Positions 15,292 through 26,193 of a stretch of DNA of 40,358 nt are shown in pieces. Origin of the DNA: Calditrichia bacterium. GTDB lineage: Bacteria; Calditrichota; Calditrichia; RBG-13-44-9; J075. The translations under genes were made by a program, and so were the position numbers. Below the pieces are notes generated by a model, which worked only from the letters and a program-made list of their open reading frames with translations, searched no databases and was not told where the DNA came from. The stretch lies in the NCBI GenBank assembly GCA_028284905.1, contig JANQQU010000046.1:1-40358 (forward strand), given 5' to 3'. How positions within the stretch are numbered: position 1 is the first letter of the stretch; the number at the start of each line of letters is the position of its first letter.

Positions 15292-15335
15292 GCAGACATG
15301 CATTTTTGCCCATTTGCCCATTTGAAATTTATCAT
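15270..15335. repeat. GAGCAAAT tandem plus inverted CCCATTTG repeat at a gene end
   Basis: Three copies of GAGCAAAT (reading into the sulfatase stop) are followed by GCATTTTTGCCCATTTGCCCATTTG, which pairs with the CAAAT words. It lies between convergent genes and may form a stem. It belongs to the same family as 12061-12108. Confidence 0.7.
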
Positions 15336-16300
15336 TACTCATCACTAACATTCAACCAAATCGACCGTGCCTCCTTATCGCCGGTATGGCCGGTAACCGT
15401 CATGGTAATACGATGTTTGCCGGGAGATAAAACGGGTACAATGCAGCTTTCTCCACGACCGACTTCCCCGTCATTGCTGGAGGTCCAGATAATGTCATCC
15501 AGCGCTAAAGCCTGACCGCCATCATTGCTGGCGGAACCGACAAAAGTAATCGATGAATCTGGGTGGAGAATAAATCCATTCTGCGGGGAGAGGATGTCGG
15601 CAGTAACCATCGCCAGCGGATCGGCAACGATATTTATCGTGATGGCTGCAGTACTAAGCTGCGTGGGTACTGCACTGCTGCGATCAGCAGCGATTAATTG
15701 AAGGGTATGTTGCCCCGCGGAAAGCCCACCCGGGGAAATCTGGGAGCCGCTGCCGAGCACGCCATCAATATCGGATAGCCATTCGAGATCTCGTGCATCA
15801 CTAATAACACTGCCATCTGCCGCCAGGCCACTGCCGCTCATTGGGATCAGGGCTGTGGAGGAGAATTGTTGCCCGGCTGCAGGCTGCTGAATAAACGCTG
15901 AGACGTTGTTTGCATTATTGCCGATGGTTATCAGAATTGTATCTTTTGCAGTGTTGCTGCCGCTGCTGGCAGTGAGAATAATGGTATGTTCAGTAATGCT
16001 TAATCCGCTTCGGCTAAAGGTGTTGCCAATCCCAATGGTGCCGTCTTTATCTGAGGTCCAGATGAGATCTTCGGCGGCGATATTACCACTACTTCCTTCC
16101 CTACCGTTTCCATTGAAATTAATTACTGCATTGTGTAGAAAATTATTGTTACTGAGCGGTGCGGTAATTGCCACGGTAATAGTATTGCCTGGGTCAGAAG
16201 GATCATCTCCCGGAGAAATGCTGTTACGGCTGCAACTATTGAGAAACATCAATAAGGCAATTATTAATAGCAAATAAATTCGGTAATAAAAGCGCTTCAT
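15335..16300 (-). CDS. Lipoprotein with three Ig/PKD-like repeats
   Basis: A 321-aa protein. The N-terminus is a lipoprotein signal with lipobox LNSC, followed by a Ser/Pro/Asp linker. Three repeats of about 95 residues share a core: L-x-W-x-S-D/N-x-D-G near the middle (LIWTSDKDGTIG, LEWLSDIDGVLG, IIWTSSNDGEVG) and LS-x-G/E-H/K-x-I/L-x-L/M-x-A/V-T at the end. This resembles the bacterial Ig-like repeats of exported adhesins and cell-surface proteins. There is no enzymatic motif. The ribosome site GAGGGAATT precedes the ATG. Likely a periplasmic or outer-membrane scaffold lipoprotein. Confidence 0.82.
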   Translation of the reverse strand: MKRFYYRIYLLLIIALLMFLNSCSRNSISPGDDPSDPGNTITVAITAPLSNNNFLHNAVINFNGNGREGSSGNIAAEDLIWTSDKDGTIGIGNTFSRSGLSITEHTIILTASSGSNTAKDTILITIGNNANNVSAFIQQPAAGQQFSSTALIPMSGSGLAADGSVISDARDLEWLSDIDGVLGSGSQISPGGLSAGQHTLQLIAADRSSAVPTQLSTAAITINIVADPLAMVTADILSPQNGFILHPDSSITFVGSASNDGGQALALDDIIWTSSNDGEVGRGESCIVPVLSPGKHRITMTVTGHTGDKEARSIWLNVSDE

Positions 16301-16676: not shown

Positions 16677-18413
16677 ATGAACACTAAATTTACTATCAGA
16701 TTGATGTTACTTATTTTTGTGGGTGGCATGATTACCACCCCACAATTAAAAGCGCAGGATGTACTGGTTACGATCGATGATATTATTCCGGAAGAAGTTC
16801 ACCTGGCCGGATTTAGCCTGAGCAGCGACCAGGAAATTGAAATTGAAGCGCTTGGCACTCACCAGAGAAGCCGTCGCTGGTCCACTTCCAGTGCCTGGAT
16901 TCTTGATGCAGATACCCGCGAAATCGTATGGGAACTGACCGATGCAAATTCCAGTTGGGTCGATCGTGGCCTGCGGGAATACAAGGACAGAGTATCCCTG
17001 AATCGCGGACGATACGAAGTTTACTTTTCTTATTTCCCCGAAAATTACAACATTGATGGCTGGAGCATTACCCGCTTCTTCTTCCGCCGTCATGATGACG
17101 ATGACGATGATCGTCGCCGCCGTTATCGTGATGATTATGAAGAATTCCAAATCACTGTTAAAGGCGATGGCCGTGGGTATGATGAATCGGAAACGATTGC
17201 ATATCGTGAAGGCATCCAGGAAAAAGCAATGGTCTCTCTGCTGGCCAGCCGCGATGATCGCTATGAGAATCAAGGTTTTAAATTGAAGAAAGATATGGAC
17301 GTTGTTGTTTACGCCCTTGGTGAAGCACGCGATGATGGTACCTATGATTATGGCTGGATTATGAACGCCGATACCCGTGAGAAAGTATGGCAGTTCAAGT
17401 ATCGTTACAGCGATCATGCCGGTGGCAGCGAAAAGAACCGGATGATCCGTGAAACTGTTTCTCTGCCGGCAGGTAACTACAGCGCCTTTTACGTGACAGA
17501 CGATTCGCATTCCCCGCGGGAATGGAATACTGCGCCGCCGTATGACCCGGAATTCTGGGGACTGTCCATTTACGCTCAAAACGACAATGATCGGGGCGCC
17601 ATCTCTCTTTACGATTACGAAGACATGCCGGAAAAAAATGTGATTGTTAATTTCACCGGATTGCGGGACGATGAATATGTCTCCAAAGGCTTTACCCTGA
17701 AAAAAGATATGGACGTACGCATCTACGCCCTTGGAGAAGGTTCCCGGGGAGAGATGTATGACTATGGTTGGATTGTTGATGCGAAGACCCACAAGCGCGT
17801 TTGGGAAATGAATTACCGTAATACCGATCATGCCGGTGGTAATAGCAAGAACCGTCTGGCCGATGAAGTGATCGAACTTGAAAAAGGCAATTATGTCGCT
17901 CATTTCGTCACCGACGATTCTCACTCCTATCGCCGCTGGAATACTTCCCCGCCGTTCGATCAGGAAAAATGGGGAATAACCATTCTAGGTGTGGGTGATA
18001 ACTTTCGGGCCAGTGATGTGACCGAATATAATGAAGACAGTGATAACAGCGACGTAATGGCGAGAATTACCCGCGTTCGCGACTGGGAAACCCGGAAAGA
18101 GCGTTTCGAAATGAAAAAAGACGGCAACGTGCGTGTTTACGCCCTGGGCGAAGGCAGCGACGGTCGGATGTATGATTACGCCTGGATCGAAAATGCCAGC
18201 ACTGGTAAAGTTGTTTGGGAAATGACCTATCGCAGAACCGACCACGCCGGTGGCGCACGTAAGAACCGTGAATTCAATGACACTATCTACTTGAAGTCCG
18301 GTGAATATCTGCTGATTTACGAATCTGATGACTCCCATTCCTTCAAGGATTGGAACTCCGCGCCACCGCGGGATCCGGCCAACTGGGGTGTCACTATTTA
18401 TAAAGCAAATTAA
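16677..18413 (+). CDS. Secreted four-repeat protein of unrecognised family
   Basis: 578 aa from ATG 16677 (GGAGAAGATGTA upstream); the frame opens earlier but lacks a ribosome site there. A signal peptide ends near LKAQ-DVL. One divergent N-terminal repeat is followed by a charged linker (RRHDDDDDDRRRRYRDDYEE, near 138-158) and three close repeats of about 137 residues. Each repeat has F-x-[LM]KKD-x-[DN]V-x-[VI]YALGE, YDY-[GA]-WI, a T-x-x-x-VW strand, a TDHAGG- or SDHAGG-x-x-KNR block, DDSHS, and WN-[TS]-[AS]-PP...WG. It is beta-rich and likely periplasmic or surface. I know no family name. A terminator follows the stop. Confidence 0.8.
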   Translation: MNTKFTIRLMLLIFVGGMITTPQLKAQDVLVTIDDIIPEEVHLAGFSLSSDQEIEIEALGTHQRSRRWSTSSAWILDADTREIVWELTDANSSWVDRGLREYKDRVSLNRGRYEVYFSYFPENYNIDGWSITRFFFRRHDDDDDDRRRRYRDDYEEFQITVKGDGRGYDESETIAYREGIQEKAMVSLLASRDDRYENQGFKLKKDMDVVVYALGEARDDGTYDYGWIMNADTREKVWQFKYRYSDHAGGSEKNRMIRETVSLPAGNYSAFYVTDDSHSPREWNTAPPYDPEFWGLSIYAQNDNDRGAISLYDYEDMPEKNVIVNFTGLRDDEYVSKGFTLKKDMDVRIYALGEGSRGEMYDYGWIVDAKTHKRVWEMNYRNTDHAGGNSKNRLADEVIELEKGNYVAHFVTDDSHSYRRWNTSPPFDQEKWGITILGVGDNFRASDVTEYNEDSDNSDVMARITRVRDWETRKERFEMKKDGNVRVYALGEGSDGRMYDYAWIENASTGKVVWEMTYRRTDHAGGARKNREFNDTIYLKSGEYLLIYESDDSHSFKDWNSAPPRDPANWGVTIYKAN

Positions 18414-18565: not shown

Positions 18566-18641
<76 letters not shown>

Positions 18642-18687: not shown

Positions 18688-18912
18688 CAGCAATAAGTCA
18701 GCAAGTCTAGTAAGGACGTCTACCTGACATCGCTTTTGTATGCGCTGGCGCTAAGTGTGCTAGCGCATTGTTGTTTTAATGTCGGAATGGCCTACCAATT
18801 CTTTTACTGTAATTAACGGTACCCCCTGCATTACCAAATGAGAAATATAAGTATGGCGAAACGTATGGCAAGTAGCCCAGGGAAAACCAATGCTAGTTAG
18901 CTTTAAAGATAT
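18688..18912 (-). pseudogene. Tyrosine recombinase (integrase) C-terminal remnant, frameshifted
   Basis: On the minus strand the C-terminal catalytic part is readable: CHTFRHTYISHL (the box II H-x-x-R), then VKELVGHSDIKTTMR (box with LGH-like His). The frame then hits TAG where RYAHLAP should begin. In the next frame the text continues LAHLAPAHTKAMSGRRPY to a stop. A single-base loss in the catalytic Tyr codon explains this. The N-terminal core-binding domain is absent. A remnant integrase next to a tRNA is a classic island scar. Confidence 0.85.
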
Positions 18913-19137
18913 CTTTCTACTAACCCACCAACACCGCCAACAAAACCACCACCAACGCCATCGCCGGTAACCGCCGATAAACCACGCCGCAACCATAACG
19001 ATGACGCCGATAACCCCATAAAAACACCAACCATCATAACGTCCCAACGCCGCCAAACCGTCGGTCACGCCAACCACGATAAAAATGGGAAACCACTGAA
19101 TGGCAAACGGGATCAACCGGTAAATTGAAACAACCAT
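18905..19137 (-). other. Hydrophobic ORF fragment joined in frame to the integrase remnant
   Basis: The frame upstream of the integrase homology reads MVVSIYRLIPFAIQWFPIF and then a second hydrophobic stretch (GVIGVIVMVAAWFIGG) and a Trp/Arg-rich end. It does not look like an integrase N-terminus. It may be the start of a small two-TM protein fused to the integrase scar by a deletion, or chance coding in GC-biased DNA. I do not recognise it. Confidence 0.25.
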
Positions 19138-19195: not shown

Positions 19196-19407
19196 AGATC
19201 ATTCCCAATAAATACGATTTTTGCATGATAAAAATTCCGGAAGCATTAAAACGACAATACTATGATAAACGAATGGGGCGAAGGCACTATCTGCCCATTT
19301 GCAAATCTGCCAATAAACAAATGATGCAGAGAAATCCAGGCGACCCAGATATTGCCTAACCACGCTTGCCCCATCTTTAAACTCGAACCCGGAGCACTCA
19401 ATTGCAG

Positions 19408-22400
19408 ATGGAAAGAAACAACATCCCGGTCATCTTCCTCGCCTTTGCGAATGACCGTGACAGCAGCGGCGGCTATCTGCGCAACCTGCCGCGCGAATTG
19501 GAGGGCATCCGCAACGCCCTTGCGCTGGCCCGCCGGGAAGGCTTATGCAAGGTGGTGGAACGGGCCAACGCCACCCTGGAGAATATCTTCGACGTTTTCC
19601 AGGAATACCGGGAACGCATCGCCATCTTCCATTACGGTGGCCATGCCGATAGCTTCCGTCTCCTCCTGGAACAACGGGATGGGCGGGCGGAAGCCGCGCA
19701 CAGCGCCGGGCTATCCCCTTTCTTGGCTGGTCAGCAGGGACTGCAGCTGATTTTCCTCAACGGCTGTTGTTCCCAGCAGCAGGCGCGGGAATTAACCGCG
19801 GCCGGTCTGCCGGTGGTGATCGGCACCTCCGGAAAAATTGCCGATGCAGTCGCTGCCGATCTTGCCATTCGTTTCTACCACGGCCTTGGGGAAGGACTCG
19901 CCCTGGAACGCTGCTGGGCGAATGCCGAGCAGCAGGTGCTTAGCCGCAACGGCGACGGAGCGGCCCGCGATCTGCAGCTGACCCGGGAAGAAGCGCTGCC
20001 CGATCGCTTTCCCTGGGAAATCTATTACCGCCCCGGCGCGGAAATAGTGAAAAGCTGGAACTTGCCTGGCGCTGCCAAAAATCCGCTGGCCGGACTGAAA
20101 ATTCCCGAAACATACTACCGCCAACTGCCCGCGCAGCCGTTTATCGGGCTGAACTATTTTCGCCGGGAAGATGCGGGCATTTTCTTTGGGCGCGGGCAGG
20201 CGATTTATCAACTCTATCAGCTCCTCCACGGGGTGCATCCGATTATTCTCTTTCACGGAAAGTCCGGGGTGGGTAAATCGTCCCTGCTTGCTGCCGGACT
20301 GCTGCCGCGCATCGGAGAAAGCCAGGCGATCTGTTATTTCCGCCGCGATCCGGAGAAAGGGTTGAGCGCCACGCTGCGCGAAGCGCTGCAAGCCGAGGCT
20401 GCCGTAGTTAACGAGTTCGACCTTTCCGCCGCCTGGCAGGCCCGGGAAGCCACGGAAGGGCGTCCGCTGATTGTCATCCTCGATCAAGCCGAAGAGGTCT
20501 TTACCCGTCCGCTGCCCCATGAGTGGGAAAAACCGGGTGAATGGGAAATCTTTCTCGCCGACCTCATCACTTTGTTTGGTCCGGGCGCCCGCTCCCCGCG
20601 TGGAAAGCTACTTCTTAGCTACCGGAAGGAATATCACCCGGAGATCAATAAGGGATTTGCAGAAGCGCGTTTATCCTGTGCACCGTTTTTCCTGCCGCAG
20701 CTGGACCGCGCCGGGATTGTTGAAGCTATCGAAGGGATTACCCGCGATGAGCGATTGCGCCAGCGCTATCCCCTCACGATCGAGGAGAACAGCGAAGGCT
20801 ACCTGCCCGGCATTATCGCCGATGATCTCCTCGAAGACCGCGATTCCCCGATTGCCCCAATGCTGCAAATCCTCCTCAGCAACCTCTGGCAGCAGGCGAC
20901 GCTGGCCGGTAGCAGCAGCACTCATTTTAAAATCGAAAACTATTACCAACTGCGCAAGCAGGGCCTGGCAATGGAGGATTTCCTCCGCCAGCAGTTCGAA
21001 AAACTGCGCGACTGGCGGGCGGAGGTGGTCGACTCTGGACTGCTGCTCGACTTGCTCCATTACCACACCACCAATATGGAAACCGCCGGCAGCCGTTCCC
21101 GGAGGGCGGTTGAGCAAGCCTATGCCGAAAAAACCGATATCAAAACATTAATAGAGCAATGCCAGGGGCGCTACCTACTTACGGAACGGGAGGATGGCGA
21201 GCAGATCAGCCTCGCCCACGATACCCTTGCCCCGGTAATCCGCCAGCGGTATGAGCTTTCCAACCAGCCGGGACAGCGAGCCGCTCGTCTGCTCAAAGCG
21301 CGGTTGCGCGATTCGAAAGCGGATAAGAAGCAGGAGGCTTCGCTTAACCGCCGGGAAATCCGCATCGTCGAAAAAGGTCGCGCTGGTATGCGAGCTTTCA
21401 GTGATGAAGAAAAGACGCTCTTGAAAAAGAGCCGACGCCGCCAGCAGCGCTTGCAATTGGCGGTTTTCGGCATCGCAACTGTTTTTGTTCTGCTTTTATG
21501 GTTGGGGATTGACACAATTCAGCAACAAAGGGATGATCTAGCATATAAAGATGCGCTTGCAGCATTAATCGATATTCTAGAAAAGGAATTCTATTACGAA
21601 TCCGAAAAAAATCCCAATGGGAGTCGCTTAGGTTGGTTTTTAACCCAAGCGGACAGTTTTGCGGTTATTAGCACCGAATGGCGAAAAATTCTTCCTAGGA
21701 ACGACCAGCTAATTGCCAGTCTCACTGACAGTGTTTACTGGCAACGGGGCGGCTCTTTAACGGCAATAACCTACGCTGAAGCCCTCGAATTTATTGATCA
21801 ACTTAACCGTGAAAATTTTGCTGGATATAGTGACTGGAGGCTTCCCAATTGGAAAGAGGCGATTTTATTGATTCGGAGGGATTCAACTTTTAATGGTCTT
21901 TACAAAAACCCTCTTTTTGATGTGCGGCAAGAACGGATTTGGACCATTGATCAGGCAACAAAGCGTCGACAATGGTGTTTGGATTTTCTTCGGGGGCAAA
22001 TCCGTGGTGTAGTAACTGATGATACTTTGTTTTTCGCTCGGGCAGTACGAACAGAATCTAAGATTGATGGATACTCTTTTCGTTTAGATCAGTTAGTTTC
22101 TGAAATGATCATGGAAAAAGGGTTTTATAACAGTGATAGAAATCGAGGTGGGAAAGGGATCAATCGGGAGGAATTTCCTTTGCAATTGCAGAGAGGTGAT
22201 TCGATTGTTTATGACCAGGCCACGAATCTGTTCTGGCAACGTAACGGGTCGGATATTTCCCTGCCGTTTGATGCTGCAAGAGCTTATGTTCAGAATCTGA
22301 ACGATACTGTCTATGGAGGATTTCAGGATTGGCGTTTGCCGACACTGGAGGAAGCGTTGAGTTTGATTACTACTCAAGATACTAGTACATATAGACATAC

Positions 22401-22563
22401 AAGTCGTCTATTTGATCGGCTAGGTTGGATTTGGACATCTAGTCAATCTGGGCGTGGCTCTCGCGTGTGGCATGTAAGTTTCTACGATGGTAAGTGTGGC
22501 AGCAGTAATCTTAGTAGCAATATTTATGTGCGCGCAGTTCGTTTTGGACAATCATCTCCATAA
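19408..22563 (+). CDS. CHAT protease-STAND ATPase-TM-tandem C-type-lectin-like (DUF1566) protein
   Basis: 1051 aa from ATG; a TTG two codons earlier sits closer to GGAG and could be the true start. Domains: CHAT caspase-like protease (about 1-200; His79 in HYGGHAD, Cys120 in FLNGCC); STAND P-loop ATPase (about 250-610; Walker A GKSGVGKSS near 284, Walker B VILDQAEE near 356); basic stretch then one TM helix (about 682-702), giving N-in/C-out by the positive-inside rule; two DUF1566/Lcl_C modules (about 728-903 and 913-1051). The second ends WIWTSS...VWHVSFYDG...YVRAVR, the C-type-lectin fold seen in DGR targets. Inferred role: lectin modules sense a periplasmic ligand, STAND switches, CHAT cleaves a partner. 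Base composition drops sharply near 21500. Confidence 0.88.
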   Translation: MERNNIPVIFLAFANDRDSSGGYLRNLPRELEGIRNALALARREGLCKVVERANATLENIFDVFQEYRERIAIFHYGGHADSFRLLLEQRDGRAEAAHSAGLSPFLAGQQGLQLIFLNGCCSQQQARELTAAGLPVVIGTSGKIADAVAADLAIRFYHGLGEGLALERCWANAEQQVLSRNGDGAARDLQLTREEALPDRFPWEIYYRPGAEIVKSWNLPGAAKNPLAGLKIPETYYRQLPAQPFIGLNYFRREDAGIFFGRGQAIYQLYQLLHGVHPIILFHGKSGVGKSSLLAAGLLPRIGESQAICYFRRDPEKGLSATLREALQAEAAVVNEFDLSAAWQAREATEGRPLIVILDQAEEVFTRPLPHEWEKPGEWEIFLADLITLFGPGARSPRGKLLLSYRKEYHPEINKGFAEARLSCAPFFLPQLDRAGIVEAIEGITRDERLRQRYPLTIEENSEGYLPGIIADDLLEDRDSPIAPMLQILLSNLWQQATLAGSSSTHFKIENYYQLRKQGLAMEDFLRQQFEKLRDWRAEVVDSGLLLDLLHYHTTNMETAGSRSRRAVEQAYAEKTDIKTLIEQCQGRYLLTEREDGEQISLAHDTLAPVIRQRYELSNQPGQRAARLLKARLRDSKADKKQEASLNRREIRIVEKGRAGMRAFSDEEKTLLKKSRRRQQRLQLAVFGIATVFVLLLWLGIDTIQQQRDDLAYKDALAALIDILEKEFYYESEKNPNGSRLGWFLTQADSFAVISTEWRKILPRNDQLIASLTDSVYWQRGGSLTAITYAEALEFIDQLNRENFAGYSDWRLPNWKEAILLIRRDSTFNGLYKNPLFDVRQERIWTIDQATKRRQWCLDFLRGQIRGVVTDDTLFFARAVRTESKIDGYSFRLDQLVSEMIMEKGFYNSDRNRGGKGINREEFPLQLQRGDSIVYDQATNLFWQRNGSDISLPFDAARAYVQNLNDTVYGGFQDWRLPTLEEALSLITTQDTSTYRHTSRLFDRLGWIWTSSQSGRGSRVWHVSFYDGKCGSSNLSSNIYVRAVRFGQSSP
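22426..22563 (+). other. Candidate variable region A of the C-terminal lectin domain
   Basis: From the codon at 22447 to that at 22519 (25 codons) 20 end in C or T. At the same aligned positions residues differ freely from the second gene while the frame residues (VW, V-x-F, G, C, N, YVRAVR) are kept. The segment ends in the invariant block starting at 22525. The pattern fits former A-to-N mutagenesis of AAY codons. It is weaker than in the second gene. Confidence 0.5.
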
Positions 22564-25560: not shown

Positions 25561-26193
25561 TTATATATGTGTCGTCGATGATTCAATATCATCGATCTCA
25601 TTGATTCGATTAGGTCTTGTTGTGCGTAATAGTTTTATTAACACCTTGTGTAATCTATGCCTCTCGATCAGATCGACAAACTCATGGACAACTGTACTTA
25701 GACTGGCAGATGAACCGGGTAAAGAATCTGGGATATTTATGCTGGCTGGTAGAGAATGTGCTAAATCTAAAATTTCATAATAATTATAAGATTTAAGAAG
25801 AAATTTTTTGAGCTTTGTATAAACTGCCGCTGAATTTTTAAAATTGCTAATCTCTGAAAGAGGGGTAGGCGCATTTGTCTGCTCTGGGGTTATATTCCTG
25901 ACTAAGCTCTCTTTGATCTTTTGCCAGACCAGATCGACTTGCTTCATCGATTTAGAATTACCTTCATACTCACGAACTATTTCAAGAAGTGATTCTATCC
26001 CACCTTCATAATTATTGCAAACACTTAAAAGGTTTATTATAGCTGCTTTCGTGGTAGTGTAGCCGTGAATATTATCCCGAATATTTTTGGGTAATCCATC
26101 TTTGATATCATTCCAAATATGCTGATTACGCATATTTGGACATTCTGCAAGAGAATTTGCTAAGATATAAATAGAATCTCTATCTAAATACAT
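25561..26193 (-). CDS. Two-domain adaptor: EAD2-like plus EAD1-like
   Basis: A 210-aa cytoplasmic protein. Residues 8-95 read LANSLAECPNMRNQHIWNDI ... GGIESLLEIVREYEGNSKSM. This is the EAD2 pattern (L-A-x-x-L-x-x-x-x-x-M; a P-x-x-I segment; a GG-x-x-x-L-x-x-x-V-x-x-x-E-G-x-S end). Residues about 125-205 contain LKKFLLKSYNYYEILDLAHS, then VVHEFVDLIERHRLHKVLIK and TRPNRINEID, resembling EAD1 and its membrane neighbour. No enzyme motif. It probably bridges a STAND or protease protein to the membrane protein. First gene of a two-gene minus-strand operon. The ATG has no obvious ribosome site. Domain names are from memory of family patterns. Confidence 0.65.
   Translation of the reverse strand: MYLDRDSIYILANSLAECPNMRNQHIWNDIKDGLPKNIRDNIHGYTTTKAAIINLLSVCNNYEGGIESLLEIVREYEGNSKSMKQVDLVWQKIKESLVRNITPEQTNAPTPLSEISNFKNSAAVYTKLKKFLLKSYNYYEILDLAHSLPASINIPDSLPGSSASLSTVVHEFVDLIERHRLHKVLIKLLRTTRPNRINEIDDIESSTTHI

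Follow-up and report, generated by a model that had tools for sequence, protein, structure and literature searches.

CUB domains are generally regarded as typical of animals, and PPC/collagen-binding domains (PF04151) usually end peptidases and carry an L-x-x-G-x-Y strand motif. In C1s CUB1, a lysine of the ligand is contacted by E45, D98 and S100, the calcium site includes D53, and C1q binding involves E45, Y52 and D98 as important residues (PMC4222235). A survey of the PSP systems puts toastracks forward as assemblers of sub-membrane signalling complexes (PMC11237479). The repeated domain analysed here is predicted to be a beta-sandwich similar in size to CUB domains such as C1s CUB1; its predicted fold resembles PPC domains about as closely as CUB domains, and it has the L-x-x-G-x-Y strand motif in common with PPC. 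Its single-copy form is hosted by Reg_prop/Y_Y_Y hybrid two-component sensors, and its four-domain form has, as in PSP/Lia systems, a toastrack (DUF4097/LiaF) gene as a recurrent neighbour, at 23 of 80 loci and not beside the window gene.

The window (the whole stretch of 40,358 nucleotides that was analysed) holds the gene on its forward strand. The ATG at 16677 lies just 3' of a GGAGA-type ribosome-binding site recognised by eye, the stop codon ends at 18413, and the predicted protein contains no cysteine (Table 1). An antisense ORF (16746-17924) is presumed to be incidental to the coding strand. The first-pass annotation had described three repeats of about 137 residues with strict motifs, and this description was confirmed. 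The strict repeats recur every 138 residues, the YDY motif starting at residues 223, 361 and 499, and YALGE, YDY[GA]WI, DHAGG-x-x-KNR, DDSHS, WN-x-x-PP and WG are each present in all three; their pairwise identities are 52, 47 and 50%. The divergent first repeat and the acidic-then-basic run reported alongside them were also recovered, the charged run RRHDDDDDDRRRRYRDDYEE occupying residues 137-156 after repeat 1; with the divergent repeat, there are four repeats in all. On sequence comparison, the repeat series is beyond chance, because the strict repeats share 47-52% identity and copies occur in other genomes (profile E down to 7.5e-51). This value belongs to the best copy outside the genome of origin (genome G002) and was obtained with a profile that includes the window repeats, whose own E-values (2.5e-50 to 5.8e-53) are self-matches to a profile containing them.

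Table 1 Features of the four-domain gene and its product (positions in the window).
Feature	Residues	Positions	Strand	Site residues	Basis
Whole gene, apparently exported four-domain protein	578 in all	16677..18413	+		ORF and translation
Signal peptide, cut before Gln27	1-26	16677..16754	+		by eye
Repeat 1, divergent	27-135	16755..17081	+	lost	profile match, 79 bits
Linker, acidic then basic run, partly low model confidence		17082..17222	+		sequence, structure prediction
Repeat 2	183-303	17223..17585	+	E216 D224 K253 N254 D275 H278 N284	profile
Repeat 3	320-441	17634..17999	+	E354 D362 K391 N392 D413 H416 N422	profile
Repeat 4	458-578	18048..18410	+	E492 D500 K529 N530 D551 H554 N560	profile; predicted alone, pLDDT 96.7

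The protein had also been called an unrecognised secreted family, and the searches agree with that label. Nothing in Pfam came over its cut-off for the window protein; the matches below it were DUF5736 (16.1 bits, cut-off 27.4), PFU (16.2, cut-off 26.2) and three weaker ones. NCBIfam likewise gave nothing over cut-off (NF045619, 10.4 against 180), and PDB sequences gave no match at E = 1 with the whole protein or at E = 10 with two domain profiles. The signal peptide was assigned by eye. Its cut (16677-16760) would expose a glutamine, as in the Q-rule of Bacteroidetes; this rule does not hold across the whole FCB group, according to PMC5837995. Literature searches found no description of the domain family, the motif-string search being uninformative because 'hagg' occurs in ordinary words, and no paper naming two of DUF4097, DUF5686, Omp85 and bactofilin. 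As a check for a link to mobile elements, repeat 4 was compared by tblastn (E <= 1e-5) with 72,556 plasmid and 50,697 phage records, and no match was found.

The domain family is real and widespread, and has no model in the libraries searched. By profile search, the domain is present in 39 of the 40 Calditrichota genomes (all those in the collection searched, the genome of origin included), and in 38 of the 40 with a sensor-type profile. At E <= 1e-20, it was found in 52/80 genomes of the phylum of a Zixibacteria-titled genome and in 33/198 genomes of the phylum of a Cyclobacteriaceae-titled one. It is nearly ubiquitous in one phylum and common in others; with one model for it, both the four-domain protein and the insert found in a set of sensors could be annotated together. 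The genome of origin (8.55 Mb) holds 15 domain-profile matches, distributed over the window gene, a six-domain paralogue of 865 residues and ORFs roughly 1300 residues long that carry one copy each.

A scan of named contigs in a second collection confirmed 135 relatives, and the best 80 of these, ranked by likeness to the strict repeats, were taken as loci; some come from genomes also covered by the Calditrichota search. Titles among these best 80 of 135 include KSB1, Calditrichota, Ignavibacteria, Zixibacteria, Gemmatimonadota, Latescibacterota, Marinimicrobia, Bacteroidota and others. With the iterated profile, a four-hit ORF was found in 76 of the best 80 loci; L052, L060, L064 and L113 gave fewer than four hits, several being cut short, and L041, whose sequence holds X, is counted in the 76 and was left out of one alignment. 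The ORF measures 540-670 residues in 78 of the 83 distinct four-hit ORFs, the longest having 977 (L085). When the whole genomes of twelve titled relatives were searched, ten contained four matches and two contained eight. The record titles of L039 (Deltaproteobacteria), L105 (Actinomycetota) and L115 (Caldisericaceae) look doubtful; L105 has neighbour genes resembling the ones at L084, whose title is Calditrichota.

In a tree of 118 domains, repeats grouped by position across phyla. All of the 25 first repeats, together with the first repeat of the six-domain paralogue from the genome of origin, fell together (99/99), and all six labels together required 15 changes on the tree, against a mean of 72.3 when shuffled. 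The second, third and fourth repeats did not each form one clade (6, 9 and 5 changes, respectively), and many forks are open. The four-domain layout is likely to be old; we do not call this proven because the later repeats are not single clades and so many forks stay open. The closest relatives of the window-gene repeats in the tree are those of L039, a locus with a downstream neighbour that is neither barrel nor toastrack and an upstream side that is cut off.

Structure prediction gave a mainly beta model of the mature protein (pLDDT 90.2, pTM 0.83), with a low-confidence stretch (pLDDT below 50) at model residues 98-116, corresponding to protein residues 124-142. Repeat 4 modelled alone has eight strands (pTM 0.90), and repeat 1 is predicted to fold despite the loss of its site and most of its b7-b8 loop. 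The domain is described here as a predicted CUB/PPC-like eight-stranded beta-sandwich. Fold comparison returned CUB structures (5fwt, Z 8.3, rmsd 2.6, 92 aligned; C1s CUB1 1nzi, Z 7.1, rmsd 2.9, 91 aligned) and PPC/collagen-binding structures (5sv5, Z 8.2, rmsd 3.1, 92 aligned; 5iku, Z 8.2, rmsd 3.2, 93 aligned), and CUB, PPC/collagen-binding and GOLD folds were tied at Z 7-8, values near 8 being within the background described for the tool. Neither the whole protein nor one domain gave a fold match clear of the rest, and no Foldseek match to the single domain reached E 0.001.

The CBM6/CBM35 structures 2cdp, 1uxz and 2wz8 came level with PPC in Foldseek (E 1.5e-3 to 2.6e-3). They bring in the possibility that the repeats are carbohydrate-binding modules, in which conserved Trp, Asp, His and Asn residues would hold a glycan, either from the envelope or from the surroundings, whether or not a structural calcium is present. 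Glycan binders often show conserved tryptophans and a tandem arrangement, and the domain has both (tryptophans W46, W102 and W113). We nevertheless consider a glycan-binding role doubtful: Pfam gave no CBM family match for the window protein, the usual ORF length leaves no room for an enzyme, and the genes that recur beside it, at 27 of 80 loci, encode a barrel and/or a toastrack.

The likeness to CUB was pursued at the level of motifs, with residues numbered as in repeat 4 alone (E35, Y42, D43, K72 etc.). The C1s CUB1 spacings E-x6-Y-D and D-x-S are equalled by E35/Y42/D43 and D94/S96, a match in sequence spacing rather than superposition, and the CUB-like halves are 51 residues apart compared with 45 in C1s. 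Unlike CUB, the window domain has an HAGG-x-x-KN loop and a near-invariant histidine, and position 42 is a tyrosine in only half of the strict repeats (125/249); S96 is found in 23/38 held-out ones. The CUB profile PF00431, which works as a control in that it finds cubilin and neuropilin, gave no match in the genome of origin (E <= 0.1) or in the window protein (E <= 1), and profile-profile comparison with CUB gave P 0.04 over 21 columns, against 0.051 for an unrelated control. CUB membership, raised by the motif spacing, is thus given no support by profile or profile-profile searches, and the likeness may be convergent or accidental. PPC membership was not supported by profile either: PF04151 had no match in the window protein (E <= 1), and the only PPC match in the genome of origin at E <= 1e-4 lies on another contig. 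In contrast to the usual setting of PPC domains, Pfam showed no peptidase domain in the window protein. A separate observation concerns L169 (genome G003, contig C49), a relative that carries CUB repeats: a 1153-residue ORF there has six PF00431 matches, five of them above cut-off.

Seven positions (E35, D43, K72, N73, D94, H97 and N103) were identical in 127/127 aligned strict repeats. They include a strict-repeat core, E-x7-D ... N ... D-x-x-H, which is lost in repeat 1. Among 83 distinct four-hit proteins, whose rows include sequences that built the profile, every second and every third repeat had all seven positions (83/83 each), as did 82/83 fourth repeats, the sole exception being a truncated sequence. 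Of the first repeats of the same proteins, 41 kept none of the seven, 33 kept one, 7 kept two and 2 kept three. With the final profile, L049 (3 hits) and L050 (5 hits) fall outside the 83; this profile omits the truncated repeat 4 of L046 and uses third and second repeats in part only.

Strict conservation was also examined in a held-out set of 13 proteins (12 four-hit, one three-hit) with 38 strict repeats not used for the profile. They come from 20 regions of the 33 matching genomes in the phylum of the Cyclobacteriaceae-titled genome, chosen as lower-scoring four-domain proteins and sensors, and were found and aligned by the same profile. D43 (38/38), N73 (38/38) and H97 (37/38) were kept almost without exception; E35 was present in 32/38, with Asp in another 3, and D94 in 32/38, with Asn in another 5. 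Because K72 and N103 vary in these repeats, only five of the seven positions (E35, D43, N73, D94 and H97) make up the true core.

In the predicted fold, 8 of the 12 polar positions above 3 bits fall within a connection (b1-b2, b3-b4, b5-b6 or b7-b8), the remaining four are in strands near these connections, and none is in the three opposite turns. Mean conservation was 2.58 bits for the connections (43 positions), 2.42 for the strands (64) and 1.61 for the opposite turns (10). The assignment to ends presumes that consecutive strands are antiparallel, and is one of topology, not coordinates. The most conserved polar residues are accordingly placed by the model in or beside the loops of one sandwich end. 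The earlier proposal had read these residues as a ligand or metal site rather than as structure alone. That they form a site is supported indirectly: the strict repeats retain them, repeat 1 has lost them as a set, and they are located in or next to loops at one end of the predicted sandwich; the step from a site to metal or ligand binding is one that we infer.

A purely structural scaffold, with conserved residues that only stabilise loops, could be argued from repeat 1, which is predicted to fold without the site and most of the b7-b8 loop, so that such domains can serve as scaffold. First repeats in general lack most of this loop, which therefore seems dispensable for the fold. Repeat 1 also suggests that the site residues themselves are dispensable for folding, and their conservation in strict repeats exceeds that of much of the core; we consider a scaffold unlikely. 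Alternatively, the E/D/N/D/H set could be catalytic in a repeated enzyme domain, its core being kept about as strictly as an active site. A binding role better suits three complete tandem sites and the use of the domain as an insert in sensors, and the CUB, PPC and GOLD folds are mostly binding folds; an enzyme is very improbable.

We tentatively favour, at somewhat short of an even chance, a reading in which the window protein works in the cell envelope and binds a ligand at several sites in a metal-dependent way, both the metal and the ligand being putative. This preference is based on the conserved site, the multivalency, the envelope neighbours and the reuse of the domain in sensors. In each sandwich, the core residues would meet in a single pocket at one end and hold a divalent metal, most likely calcium by analogy with calcium-binding CUB domains. 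All these pockets may grip the same ligand, a molecule of the envelope or from outside the cell that possibly has basic groups, and three equal sites would provide avidity. Repeat 1 could act as a structural or docking domain towards envelope partners, and the one-copy sensors would detect this ligand or a related one and signal through histidine-kinase or SpoIIE-type outputs.

The make-up of the site brings in a different role for the metal, namely buffering or a metallochaperone function in the envelope, with three His/Asp/Glu sites holding a transition metal and the sensors reporting metal levels. A near-invariant histidine with a glutamate and two aspartates is unusual for a pure calcium site, and three equal sites per protein and the use of the same domain in sensors would suit such a function. 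The protein has no cysteine, each site has one core histidine, and the recurrent partners are not metal transporters; we regard metal buffering as quite unlikely.

Multivalent ligand binding in the envelope also draws on the single-copy form. Reg_prop and Y_Y_Y domains were present in 11/11 sensors scanned, of 20 found. Their outputs were SpoIIE in five, HisKA with HATPase in three, HisKA_3 in one, a LytS-type His_kinase in one, and a hybrid with receiver and AraC-type HTH in one. Compared with usual Reg_prop/Y_Y_Y sensors, they have an extra beta-sandwich among the propeller blades, for which no Pfam model was reported. All seven site residues were kept in 10 of the 14 distinct sensor copies of the Calditrichota set, the other four keeping 6, 4, 4 and 3, and in all eight held-out sensor copies. 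Twelve sensor copies formed one clade (100/99) among the strict repeats in the tree of 118 domains. Because the sensor clade falls among the strict repeats, the tree suggests that the sensor insert was derived from the exported protein, in a placement that is weakly supported (98/76).

The genes surrounding the four-domain ORF were compared across the best 80 of 135 loci. On the same strand and within 400 nt, a toastrack was found at 23/80 loci and a barrel at 18/80; either partner was present at 27/80, barrel and DUF4097-type toastrack at 14/80 and neither at 53/80, with 18/80 loci holding under 700 nt on at least one side. Three gene orders recur. One runs barrel, four-domain protein, toastrack, with gaps or overlaps mostly of a few to about 100 bases. 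A second order is barrel, toastrack, four-domain protein (L058, L076, L082, L090 and L112), with the barrel 0.9-2.4 kb upstream, and a third has the four-domain protein followed by the barrel (L080, L083 and L086). For the barrel, the match to Omp85 was over cut-off, whereas those to DUF5686 and bactofilin stayed under theirs. The toastrack is a DUF4097 match or, where upstream, LiaF-C (above cut-off in L112, below it in L082), and the L058 neighbour gave a PspC-type toastrack match below cut-off (10 neighbours scanned).

The window gene itself has neither barrel nor toastrack within 400 nt. On another contig of the same genome, a barrel-toastrack operon surrounds the six-domain paralogue. Since the genome holds only 3 DUF4097 matches in all, in 8.55 Mb, chance adjacency of these operon genes is unlikely. 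Repeats 1 and 2 of the paralogue group with those of the operon-type loci L066, L107 and L116 (97/92 and 99/92); repeat 1 is closest to L087, which is not operon-type. The genome of origin seems to hold both kinds, stand-alone and operon-type.

The relation to PSP/Lia systems consists of shared toastrack neighbours only. The PSP survey infers intracellular toastracks, whereas several of those found here start with an apparent signal peptide, recognised by eye; the partners here are an outer-membrane barrel and the four-domain protein, which section 27 of the survey does not mention (PMC11237479). A more ambitious version of envelope ligand binding would make the neighbourhood an uncatalogued envelope-surveillance module of the FCB superphylum. 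Three calcium-dependent CUB-like sites, an outer-membrane barrel and an exported toastrack would together monitor or organise the envelope, and the domain would later have been built into propeller kinases and phosphatases sensing the same ligand. We rate this version as possible and on balance rather unlikely. The conserved site and the barrel-toastrack neighbourhood offer concrete tests of what these envelope systems detect.

Several other genes lie near the four-domain gene in the window. Upstream, 15335-16300 (minus strand) encodes a lipoprotein-like product with a cysteine in a lipobox-like start, recognised by eye, and Ig/PKD-like matches below cut-off. Downstream, a tRNA-Phe gene (18566-18641, plus strand) is followed by a short ORF (18760-19137, minus strand) whose end, judged by eye, resembles the C-terminal portion of tyrosine recombinases (RHTYISHLVMQG...GHSDIKTT); this ORF is perhaps the remnant of an element inserted at tRNA-Phe. 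Further along, 19402-22563 (plus strand) encodes a 1053-residue fusion of CHAT, nSTAND1 and Lcl_C domains according to Pfam, a type of architecture linked to bacterial conflict systems. The product of 25561-26193 (minus strand) has an EAD2 match (E 1.5e-8) and a weak EAD7 match, and is possibly a partner to other STAND-type genes nearby.
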